Under the pieces are notes generated by a model, which saw nothing but the letters and a program-made list of their open reading frames with translations, was not told the DNA's origin and did not search any database. Positions 3,865 through 7,406 of a DNA stretch of 64,000 bases are shown here, one piece after another. The stretch comes from an uncultured Erythrobacter sp. (GTDB lineage Bacteria; Pseudomonadota; Alphaproteobacteria; Sphingomonadales; Sphingomonadaceae). A program made the translations under genes and the position numbers. The stretch spans positions 2,204,818 to 2,268,817 of the forward strand of contig CANNBH010000001.1 in assembly GCA_947502815.1 (NCBI GenBank), in the 5' to 3' direction. How positions within the stretch are numbered: the stretch's first letter is position 1; each line of letters begins with the position of its first letter.

Positions 3865-4299
3865 TTGCCTGACGGCGGGGTGCTGCTGGGCCTTGATCTT
3901 GGCACAAAGACTATTGGAACGGCTGTTTGCGATGCGGGATGGCGCTTTGCCACCAATGGCAAGACGATCTCTCGGGGGAAATGGGCGAAGGATAGGGCGT
4001 TGCTGCGCGAAATCATTGAGGCCCGCTCGGTAACCGGCATCATCCTTGGCCTTCCGCGCAATATGGACGGGAGCGAGGGTCCGCGCGCGCAATCCAGCCG
4101 GGCATTTGCCCGAAATCTGCAAGAAGCTTTCGCGCTGCCGCTGCTGCTATGGGATGAACGCTGGTCCACCCAAAGCGCCGAAGCCGCGATGATAGGTCAG
4201 GATATGAGCCGCGCCCGCCGCGCAGAAGCCATCGACAGCCACGCCGCTGCGGTCATCTTGCAAGGTGCAATAGATCGACTCGCTGGAGGAGTGCTCTAA
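3865..4299 (+). CDS. ruvX: Putative pre-16S rRNA nuclease / Holliday junction resolvase-like (YqgF/RuvX)
   Basis: LLGLDLGTKTIGTAVCD, GLPRNMDGSEGPRAQ, DERWST motifs. Confidence 0.92.
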   Translation: MPDGGVLLGLDLGTKTIGTAVCDAGWRFATNGKTISRGKWAKDRALLREIIEARSVTGIILGLPRNMDGSEGPRAQSSRAFARNLQEAFALPLLLWDERWSTQSAEAAMIGQDMSRARRAEAIDSHAAAVILQGAIDRLAGGVL

Positions 4300-5195
4300 G
4301 CCGCATTGAGCGTTGCACGGCGCTTTTTCGCAACCGTCGCCACCATGCGGGAGCCGCTTCGTTCCGCTTTGCGCCACAATTCGTGGCTGTGTGCATGATC
4401 GTCTGACAGTCCAGCGCGCGCTTCGAAACTGGCCAGTCTCAGCCGCTCGCTTGGATGAGATGCGCCGACCCATTCGGCAAAATCCCGTGCGTTTCCCGAT
4501 CCACTCGCCACCGCAGTGCGCAAGAAAACCTCCGTTGCATTGGGGCTAAGAACGCGGGTAACCTCGCCGCTTTCTAGATCAAACCCATATTGGTCGAACC
4601 ACGCCTGTGCCGGATCGACATGCATGACATTGAGCGAAACCGACAGACTTTCCGCTGGCAATTGAGAATGCACATCGCGGTGCGCGCGGTAGAGCATCAT
4701 TTTGCCTTCATGCAGCGCGCTGCGCTCAACAAAGCGGAGCCCAGCATTCTCACCTGCAAAACCGGTCACTGCCTCATAGTCATATTCGTAATAGTCGCTG
4801 ACATATCCCGACCCGCAATAGCCGCTGGTAAGAAAGGAGAAATTGTGGTCGTGGGGCACGCCATAAACGAATGTTTTCGCCCCGCTGTTACGAAAACATA
4901 GATCATGTTCGGCAGGCCAAATGTTGGCGCGCAAGAACATGTTTCCTCGCACCGGGCTAAGCAAAATTGCCTGCGGGCCGTAGCCGCTTTCCAAAGCGCC
5001 AGCCGTCCGTCCCGCTAATCGGTCCAGCAACACATCCGCAAGGAAAGTTCGATTGTTGGATAGTCTGCGCAGCCATAAGGCCGCCTCTTGCGCACTCTCT
5101 GCCTCTCTTGGGTCAAAATCGAGCGCGGCGAGCGCCTCAATCGCTTCTGGCAGCGAGCAGCTTTGTGCTTCGTTAGCCGAGATTCTTTGCGGCAT
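4296..5195 (-). CDS. Uncharacterised protein with His-rich cupin-like motif (putative peptide-modifying enzyme)
   Basis: ORF 4296..5366; likely start MPQRISANEAQ at 5195, overlapping the upstream stop (TGATG). Contains VPHDHNFSFLTSGYCGSGYVSDYYEYD and AHRDVHSQ. Confidence 0.75.
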   Translation of the reverse strand: MPQRISANEAQSCSLPEAIEALAALDFDPREAESAQEAALWLRRLSNNRTFLADVLLDRLAGRTAGALESGYGPQAILLSPVRGNMFLRANIWPAEHDLCFRNSGAKTFVYGVPHDHNFSFLTSGYCGSGYVSDYYEYDYEAVTGFAGENAGLRFVERSALHEGKMMLYRAHRDVHSQLPAESLSVSLNVMHVDPAQAWFDQYGFDLESGEVTRVLSPNATEVFLRTAVASGSGNARDFAEWVGASHPSERLRLASFEARAGLSDDHAHSHELWRKAERSGSRMVATVAKKRRATLNAA

Positions 5196-6166
5196 CAGGC
5201 GGCCTCCTCTTGGATCATAGAAATCGGGATCCCGTTCACGCGAAGTTGCTGCATCAGCTTGACCGCTGGCAAAGCGAGTGTGTCTGACTCGCGCACCGAT
5301 AGACGGTGGAGCAGGTCGATTCCTCGTTTCGTATCCATCGCCAAAATTTGCCGGATGGCTTCCCATCTTGCGTCGGCATCATGGTCCGTATCCAAAGCGA
5401 AGCGCCCCATCGCGCCAATTCCAGCGCGATGATCAAGGGCCCCCAGAACCGCCAAAGCCATCACCTGCTCGCTAGCGCGTTTGTCTCCGCTTGCCTGCTG
5501 AATCAGACGGTTGTCCTCTAAAAGAAACTCGCGTGATGGTTGCGGTGCCTTTGACACACGTCCCAATTGCAGCACGAGCATCGTCTGCGTCACATTGACG
5601 ATTGTCCGCGTATCGCAGCATGGCCGACGGGCAATATGATCGCCTGCCCGCCACGCACGCGCAGTGCTGCGAACGCGTTGCGTGACGTCAGCTTCGGCAT
5701 TTAGGGTGTGGAACAAGCCCACCCCTTCACCCGCGATAACCATCTCATAGGCGGCACAATCGGTGAACTGTGCGGATACCGGATCAATGGGATCGGCCAC
5801 CGGCTCATACACGCATAAAGAAAGCGTCGTGCCGCCAATCTGCATCAATTGCAGGCGGGCAAAACTTTGGCTCGACATATGGCGCAGGGGAACTTCGCCC
5901 AAGGCGTCTTCGCGCAAACTTTCGATCACCGCGTCATGAAATTGCCTGATCCAATCTCGTGCAGCGCTGTGATCATGCATCAGCAATTGCAACGCAGGCA
6001 AAGCGCCGAGGCCAGTCCCCTGATCAAACAGATACAACTCACGCGTCACCGCCGCGACCGACGGTCTTTCACGCCACTCAGACACGACTTGGTCGATCGC
6101 TGCCTGGATGCGGCGCTGCAAAGCAGGGTCACTTCGCAGCGCCGCTATGGCAGGATGCACATGCAT
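5195..6166 (-). CDS. Uncharacterised protein, putative partner of the downstream cupin-like protein; C-terminal region looks HEAT-like
   Basis: ORF 5195..6250; likely start MHVHPAIAALRSD at 6166, 16 nt after the small-peptide stop codon; overlaps next gene by TGATG. Confidence 0.72.
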   Translation of the reverse strand: MHVHPAIAALRSDPALQRRIQAAIDQVVSEWRERPSVAAVTRELYLFDQGTGLGALPALQLLMHDHSAARDWIRQFHDAVIESLREDALGEVPLRHMSSQSFARLQLMQIGGTTLSLCVYEPVADPIDPVSAQFTDCAAYEMVIAGEGVGLFHTLNAEADVTQRVRSTARAWRAGDHIARRPCCDTRTIVNVTQTMLVLQLGRVSKAPQPSREFLLEDNRLIQQASGDKRASEQVMALAVLGALDHRAGIGAMGRFALDTDHDADARWEAIRQILAMDTKRGIDLLHRLSVRESDTLALPAVKLMQQLRVNGIPISMIQEEAA

Positions 6167-6182
6167 CTGCGTCGGGCCTTGC

Positions 6183-6350
6183 TTAAAACAAGCCAGGAGG
6201 CGGTGGTGGAGGCGGAGGCGCCGTGTCATAGACATAGACCATGATCTCAACGATGGTATCGTCGAAGGACGCCGCCTTTGTCTTCACGGCTCCAAACACG
6301 GCTTGAGCGGTTTCAAGCCCTGGAATATTGGCAAGATCGATTTTTGGCAT
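6183..6350 (-). CDS. 55-aa peptide with C-terminal octaproline (candidate modified-peptide precursor)
   Basis: MPKIDLANIPGLETAQAVFGAVKTKAASFDDTIVEIMVYVYDTAPPPPPPPPGLF*; AGAGGA upstream of ATG; followed by two co-directional genes with tight spacing. Confidence 0.65.
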   Translation of the reverse strand: MPKIDLANIPGLETAQAVFGAVKTKAASFDDTIVEIMVYVYDTAPPPPPPPPGLF

Positions 6351-6481
6351 CACTGCAAGTCCTCTTGGGTTACATGCTGAGCAAAATTGCGAGCAGCACA
6401 CTCAGCAAACTGAGCCAGTAAGAGGCTGTTTTGAAATTAAATGATGGTAATGGCACATAAAACAGGCCAATGGTTTCAATT

Positions 6482-6997
6482 ATGAGCACAAATGATACTT
6501 CACCAATCCCGGGCTTCGACGCTCGAGAAGCGAGCAAGCTCTTCTTTCGCGGCGGGCATACTGGCTGGCTTGGTTTAAAATTTTCCGGCCAAGGGGACAA
6601 TTGGGTCGAACTTGAATTGCCTTGGAGAGCCGATCTGCTGGGCCAGGATGATCGCGAAGTGCTCGCCTCCGGCCCAATCGTCAGCTTAATGGACATGGCA
6701 AGCGGCATGTCGATCTGGCAAACTAGGCGGACCTTCGCACCGGTGGCAACGCTCGACCTGAGAGTGGATTATCAACGCCCTGCGCGGGAACGCAGCGCGG
6801 TCTGGGGCAGAGTGGAATGCTATCGCACGACCCGCTCCGCCGCCTTTGTGCGCGGTATTGCGCATGATGGCGATGTGGATGATCCGGTCGCGCACGTTGC
6901 CGGTGTCTTTATGACAATCGCCTTCGATCCGCGGCGCGTGAAACAGCCTATCCAATCCGGCGAAGTCCCCATCAAAGCGGGAACCGATGATGCCTGA
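6482..6997 (+). CDS. PaaI-family hotdog thioesterase
   Basis: GPIVSLMDMASGMSIWQTRRTFAPVATLDLRVDYQRPA hotdog motif. Confidence 0.85.
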   Translation: MSTNDTSPIPGFDAREASKLFFRGGHTGWLGLKFSGQGDNWVELELPWRADLLGQDDREVLASGPIVSLMDMASGMSIWQTRRTFAPVATLDLRVDYQRPARERSAVWGRVECYRTTRSAAFVRGIAHDGDVDDPVAHVAGVFMTIAFDPRRVKQPIQSGEVPIKAGTDDA

Positions 6998-7406
6998 CAG
7001 CAGCAAAGATTTGGAAGAACAACAATTGGACCTCCCTCCCTATGCCCGTGCGTTGGGTATTGCGATCACCGAACTTGAAGACGGAGTTCCCGTTTTATCG
7101 GTGGAGTTCGGCCAAAGCGTCGAAGGTCGGCCGCAGCATTATCATGGCGGCGCAACTGCCGGATTGCTTGAGAATGCTGGCTATGCAGCTCTGCGTGCAC
7201 GTCTGATTGCAGATGGGCGCGAAGCGCGGCTAAAACCGGTGAATATCACGGTGCAATATCTGTCAGCTGGCAAAGCCTGCCCGAGCTTCGCCAAAGGTCG
7301 CATCACCCGGCTTGGCCGGCGAAACGCCAACATTACAGTGGAAGCGTGGCAAGATGATAGAGACCGCCCAATTGCGACTGCCATAATGAACATACTGATG
7401 GCTTAG
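6987..7406 (+). CDS. PaaI-family hotdog thioesterase
   Basis: YHGGATAGLLENAGYAALRA...PVNITVQYLSAGKA; overlaps preceding gene. Confidence 0.85.
   Translation: MMPDSSKDLEEQQLDLPPYARALGIAITELEDGVPVLSVEFGQSVEGRPQHYHGGATAGLLENAGYAALRARLIADGREARLKPVNITVQYLSAGKACPSFAKGRITRLGRRNANITVEAWQDDRDRPIATAIMNILMA

Follow-up and report, generated by a model that had tools for sequence, protein, structure and literature searches.

Does a 55-residue reading frame that lies directly upstream of two genes of no named family in an Erythrobacter genome encode a peptide precursor, and are the products of its two neighbors the proteins that would modify it? The locus (Table 1) is part of a 64,000 nt stretch of DNA from an uncultured Erythrobacter sp. 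(the window). An initial annotation had tied the precursor-like peptide to two non-housekeeping proteins, but recognized no named class of ribosomally made, enzymatically modified peptides (RiPPs). We consider it probable, at roughly two chances in three, that the locus is an undescribed minimal biosynthetic operon for such a RiPP-like peptide.

Table 1. Features of the peptide-cupin locus and its flanks, in window coordinates.
Feature	Position	Strand	Description
55-aa precursor-like peptide gene	6183..6350	-	Leader MPKIDLANIPGLETAQAVFGA, linker, conserved DDTIVEIMVYVYD, variable proline tail
323-aa partner protein gene	5195..6166	-	Predicted N-terminal helices, cupin fold, C-terminal HEAT-like helices
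299-aa cupin protein gene	4296..5195	-	Candidate modifying enzyme; predicted C-terminal HEAT-like helices
Intergenic region, 119 nt	6351..6469	.	Separates operon from divergent thioesterase gene
ruvX flank	3865-4299	+	Name by eye and from the initial annotation
Two thioesterase-like genes, flank	6470-7406	+	Names by eye and from the initial annotation

Organization, distribution and genomic site of the unit

The three minus-strand reading frames lie where the initial annotation had placed them, with 16 nt between the end of the peptide gene and the ATG of the 323-aa frame and a TGATG by which that frame (TGA) overlaps the 299-aa frame (ATG). The overlap recurs in 84 of 91 loci and suggests translational coupling of the two genes, which we count as support for the RiPP-like reading. 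The encoded peptide is MPKIDLANIPGLETAQAVFGAVKTKAASFDDTIVEIMVYVYDTAPPPPPPPPGLF. There is an alternative, longer GTG start at 6401; the alignment with homologues begins at the 6350 ATG, and a GAGG is located ~10 nt upstream of this ATG, within the intergenic region. A scan for promoters and terminators gave nothing above expectation, and no sigma-70-like match was identified in the intergenic region. The window genome carries one copy each of the peptide and the 299-aa protein, a predicted cupin (see below).

With the 55-mer as the sole tblastn query, 88 of the 103 loci with the 299-aa gene showed a peptide homologue next to it, so the peptide gene is not a chance reading frame. The 323-aa protein is present in 91/103 loci that hold the 299-aa gene (tblastn). 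A peptide profile matched at the proper site upstream in 133 of 155 loci, and no other frame in a set of 27,424 gave a match (contig ends account for five of the loci that it missed). Because the profile was built partly from those loci, the single-query count is the non-circular figure. For 12 loci that are among the most distant, beyond the reach of peptide sequence search, we used a rule requiring a ribosome-binding site, a length of 30-65 aa, a Val/Ile-rich hydrophobic stretch in the last 20 residues, and a position <=600 nt upstream of the partner gene. A small gene of this kind occupies the expected slot in 11/12 loci versus 1/462 control windows. This contrast should be taken as an indication and not as a clean test, since the rule was set after the candidates had been seen. 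By all three counts, homologues of the two larger genes do not consistently lack an adjacent small reading frame, and the proposed link between the peptide and both proteins stands.

At one genome per species, 80 loci encode the 299-aa protein, at identities from 80% down to ~41%, in Erythrobacter, Qipengyuania, Altererythrobacter, Croceibacterium, Novosphingobium, Sphingosinicella, Parasphingopyxis and Ferrimonas. The protein occurs in 22 of 61 relatives. Profile searches identified it in 105/301 genomes and 46/96 genera of a sample of the taxonomic family, and, more widely, in 5/387 genomes of the class, 15/399 of the phylum and 5/395 of the order of genome G553. The three-gene peptide-cupin unit is real, widespread and without a family name; it occurs in many sphingomonad-type bacteria and also in some marine gamma-proteobacteria. 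The peptide and both proteins have nothing significant in NCBIfam, PADLOC or PHROGs, and the sole Pfam match of the window proteins is a sub-cutoff HEAT match to the 323-aa protein, in keeping with the initial annotation, which recognized no named RiPP class. A literature search that covered few subscription papers found no description of the unit.

The unit adjoins ruvX and/or the thioesterase genes in 64 of 72 long loci. The gap between ruvX and the thioesterases is only 65-250 nt in nine congeners that lack the whole unit, versus ~2.2 kb in the window, and these empty sites point to loss, or gain, of the unit as a block. Judged by this synteny, the unit is an old resident of the site, coming and going as a block. 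The locus had been described as an accessory insertion; its absence from the nine congeners agrees with the first word, and the shared site rules out a recent arrival. Clean presence or absence at one site, together with a small hydrophobic peptide, is also what a toxin-antitoxin or defence cassette might display. We find this very improbable given the vertical residence at that site, the lack of any PADLOC match, and the enzyme-like invariant residues of the larger protein.

The precursor-like peptide

The common pattern of the peptides is MxLPKIDLxxLPxLDxxxGLFGS, a variable linker, DDxIVxIMVYVY(D/E) and a variable tail. As in RiPP precursors with leader and core, an N-terminal part (IDxxxLPxLDxxxGxxGS) is common across lineages and the C-termini differ. 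The core is DDxIVxIMVYVY in Erythrobacteraceae, where it is conserved, VGGPxC(I/V) plus hydrophobic residues in Sphingosinicella, Parasphingopyxis and Ferrimonas, and VFVIPIIIV or similar in other lineages. Where tblastn gave no hit, inspection of the locus by eye revealed peptides (e.g., MKKIDISRIPELKTSVGMQGSVKHKEVGGPVCIAALLAVAYMLS at L098). Ferrimonas encodes four tandem precursor copies of the MKLNNTAELNSQFGVAGASQLQVVGGPICIGIMVVLIK type, also read by eye (tandem sequence VVGGPICIGIMVVLIK), and the Alteromonas locus has two precursors per unit.

The dN/dS of the peptide gene is 0.18 overall across 34 independent close pairs, which supersede a first estimate discarded for its saturated, non-independent pairs. 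By segment, the values are 0.16 for the leader, 0.27 for the linker, 0.06 for DDxIVxIMVYVY(D/E) and 0.33 for the tail. These ratios indicate that the peptide gene is under purifying selection, and the pattern argues that it is translated and that its sequence matters, with the tail mattering least. The polyproline tail had been singled out as a distinctive motif and likely modification site, and we reject it as a functional motif: only 13 of 84 distinct Erythrobacteraceae peptides have a run of at least four prolines, and the tail is the least constrained segment.

Within Erythrobacteraceae, the presumed core is the most conserved part of the peptide, which counts against the RiPP-like reading; in many antimicrobial RiPPs, by contrast, the core is not the most conserved part. 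The high conservation of DDxIVxIMVYVY(D/E) would suit an unmodified small protein with a structural or regulatory role as a subunit in a complex of the two cupins. The substrate of the cupin would then be a small molecule, and the peptide would tether or gate the cupin or anchor it to the membrane. The evidence for a RiPP-like product is also compatible with such a subunit, as is the absence of export genes from the Erythrobacteraceae site. We nevertheless regard the subunit as unlikely, though a serious candidate: lineages differ in the entire core sequence but not in the cupin active site, several loci have two to four tandem precursors, and ABC exporters are linked to the unit in gamma-proteobacteria.

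Predicted folds of the two larger proteins

HMM and structure searches of both proteins, a route raised in the initial annotation, led to no named family and gave models that combine a cupin with helical domains. The 299-aa window protein matches nothing in Pfam or NCBIfam at E<=1, does not fall into the CDO, ADO or MDO families by sequence, and has no sequence relative among solved structures in a PDB search. Its AlphaFold2 model (mean pLDDT 91, pTM 0.85) comprises N-terminal helices, a cupin beta-sandwich and a helical, HEAT-like C-terminus. The best Foldseek match to a solved structure is mercaptosuccinate dioxygenase (8vni, E 1e-7), with 3-mercaptopropionate and cysteine dioxygenases next, and then NO66-type JmjC proteins, ergothioneine dioxygenase, ADO and a plant cysteine oxidase (PCO4). 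The best matches also include 4tlf (9e-7) and 5efu (8e-6). That the nearest folds are small-molecule thiol dioxygenases would also fit a cupin with a peptide subunit, as outlined above.

Residues R89, W93, Y111, H115, H117, N118 and G128 are identical in every member examined, including the most distant, as are Y131, H176, Q178, S185, N189 and Q202 in all members examined. Together with the model, they predict a cupin fold with a three-histidine metal site (H115/H117/H176). The HxD/E...H iron motif of JmjC and 2-oxoglutarate enzymes is absent: the 299-aa protein has HDHN, in which HxH is invariant, and a third His at 176. Thiol dioxygenases have the three-histidine pattern HxH...H, and 2-oxoglutarate enzymes have HxD/E...H. 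The invariant R89 lies 26 residues before the first His, like Arg60 and His86 in CDO. The protein is thus, like the thiol dioxygenases (for cysteine, 3-mercaptopropionate and mercaptosuccinate, the cysteamine dioxygenase ADO and the plant cysteine oxidases), a predicted cupin with HxH...H. Unlike them, it has extra N-terminal and HEAT-like domains and no sequence match to solved structures, and its partner peptides in Erythrobacteraceae almost never contain Cys. Cys is the natural substrate of thiol dioxygenases, and its absence from nearly all Erythrobacteraceae peptides (it occurs in 3/84; the VGGPxC branch has Cys) is another point against the RiPP-like reading.

The model of the 323-aa protein (pLDDT 93) has the same architecture of N-terminal helices, cupin core and HEAT-like helices, and the core resembles many cupins in a structure search. 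Pfam HEAT_2 is found in 23 of 36 members of this family (best 2e-10), and both models have helical C-termini of the HEAT-repeat kind. The family is far less conserved than that of the 299-aa protein. Its invariant positions (M1, G146, L241, R267, W268 and A301) include no metal ligands, and we read the protein as a metal-less partner. Kinship of the two families is suggested by their common predicted architecture, since a profile comparison is weak and ambiguous (E=0.005, but a probability of 7%).

An RRE (PqqD-like) leader-binding domain is common, though not obligatory, in RiPP systems; Pfam searches gave no match to it in members of either protein family. There is no Pfam match to DUF692, and weak DUF693 matches (best E 0.061) concern a different family. 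In MNIO (DUF692) RiPP systems, a catalytic metalloenzyme and a partner protein are encoded next to a short precursor (PMC12257519). The unit shares this two-protein layout and differs in its predicted cupin and HEAT folds. Cupin-fold proteins in peptide operons have a precedent in PbsQ and BpmG, JmjC-related cupin-like peptide hydroxylases of RiPP loci, of which PbsQ hydroxylates a precursor residue (PMC12257519). Unlike these enzymes, the 299-aa protein has HxH...H in place of HxD/E...H, and its locus lacks an MNIO, arginase or radical SAM partner.

Proposed modification and linked exporters

A short gene-encoded precursor-like peptide lies beside putative modifying genes and is conserved with them as a unit. 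In the RiPP-like scheme that we favor, the precursor would consist of an N-terminal recognition part (xxIDLxxLPxLDxxxGLFGS) and a hydrophobic core, rich in Val, Ile and Tyr, that differs between lineages. The leader most likely docks on partner or HEAT surfaces and may later be cleaved. The 323-aa cupin-HEAT protein, a putative metal-less relative, would present or scaffold the precursor. The 299-aa cupin-HEAT protein, with its thiol-dioxygenase-like fold and three-histidine site, would be the catalyst, probably of a reaction on the core that depends on O2 and iron. On the Val/Ile/Tyr segment, this could be a hydroxylation, a desaturation or chemistry at the backbone, and the Cys may be used in the VGGPxC branch. 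Plain thiol oxidation is presumably not the general reaction because the Erythrobacteraceae cores lack Cys.

To our knowledge, cupins with three histidines have no established role in modifying RiPPs, a further point against the RiPP-like reading. The unit could represent a new RiPP class, in which a three-histidine, 2-oxoglutarate-independent cupin of thiol-dioxygenase fold acts with a metal-less cupin-HEAT paralogue on hydrophobic, mostly Cys-free cores; we hold this more specific reading tentatively, at odds slightly short of even. If true, it would imply a chemistry previously assigned neither to the thiol-dioxygenase fold nor to RiPPs. Should the cupin modify the peptide at all, it would add another enzyme fold to the RiPP toolbox, and the question would become what a thiol-dioxygenase-like site does to a Cys-free peptide. 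The breadth of the unit in the family and the lack of a named domain in cupin and peptide add to its interest.

Export genes were identified near the unit in relatives. In Ferrimonas (L103), the unit is followed by genes for Yip1, HlyD, an ABC ATPase and a MacB permease. On the Alteromonas stellipolaris plasmid pASTE61-200 (CP013927.1, L179), two precursors, the partner and the cupin come after genes of the Yip1, HlyD, ABC ATPase and MacB types and are followed by an ABC ATPase with an ABC-2 permease. The higher sub-cutoff NCBIfam matches of the Alteromonas ATPase include bacteriocin export and lantibiotic protection families. An ABC ATPase gene is also found downstream of the unit in L186. 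All three gamma-proteobacterial loci (L103, L179 and L184) encode a Yip1-domain membrane protein close to the unit. The Ferrimonas and Alteromonas precursors thus resemble those of bacteriocin or MacAB-exported peptide loci, unlike the Erythrobacteraceae locus, which lacks HlyD, ABC ATPase and MacB genes. No protease, transporter or RRE-type leader-binding domain was seen next to the unit in Erythrobacteraceae, which likewise counts against the RiPP-like reading.

Secretion of the product, possibly as an antimicrobial peptide, is hinted at most strongly by these exporters, which do not show that the Erythrobacteraceae product is secreted. The exporters would also suit a bacteriocin-like hydrophobic peptide without covalent modification, with the two proteins as chaperones, immunity or export-coupling factors and a cupin metal site that is structural or senses O2 or iron; the short, very hydrophobic C-termini and the ATPase matches fit as well. 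Such a peptide seems improbable to us because the invariance of a full catalytic-type residue set exceeds what is expected of a chaperone, and the Erythrobacteraceae have no export or immunity pair. Under the RiPP-like reading, the gamma-proteobacterial product is probably exported by the adjacent MacAB-type ABC systems and may have bacteriocin activity. In Erythrobacteraceae, export could involve genes elsewhere, or the product could be kept inside the cell.

Several loci depart from the usual arrangement. The exception among the 12 far relatives (L146, genome G380) has a cupin and a HEAT-type partner-like gene upstream but lacks a clear Val/Ile-rich peptide; a frame further upstream that starts MKTEKSVIADLDVELSAIGGYDPISGMPCGSLYGP may be a precursor of another kind. 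In some Erythrobacteraceae (L034, L057, L087 and L090; G009 and G028), the partner or cupin gene is interrupted by a frame break or an in-frame stop, which suggests either that the unit is decaying or that the assembly contains errors. Two loci (L187 and L188, in genomes G1267 and G553) encode cupins of ~234 aa, apparently without the HEAT tail, an upstream protein of 239-242 aa with no match to the partner profile, and precursors ending in DPVFVIPIII; this looks like a distinct sub-type of the unit. Finally, L153 (G1073:C30:4000-16000) contains two complete partner and cupin pairs in tandem with three different precursor-like peptides, and one of the pairs appears to be a duplicated, diverged unit.
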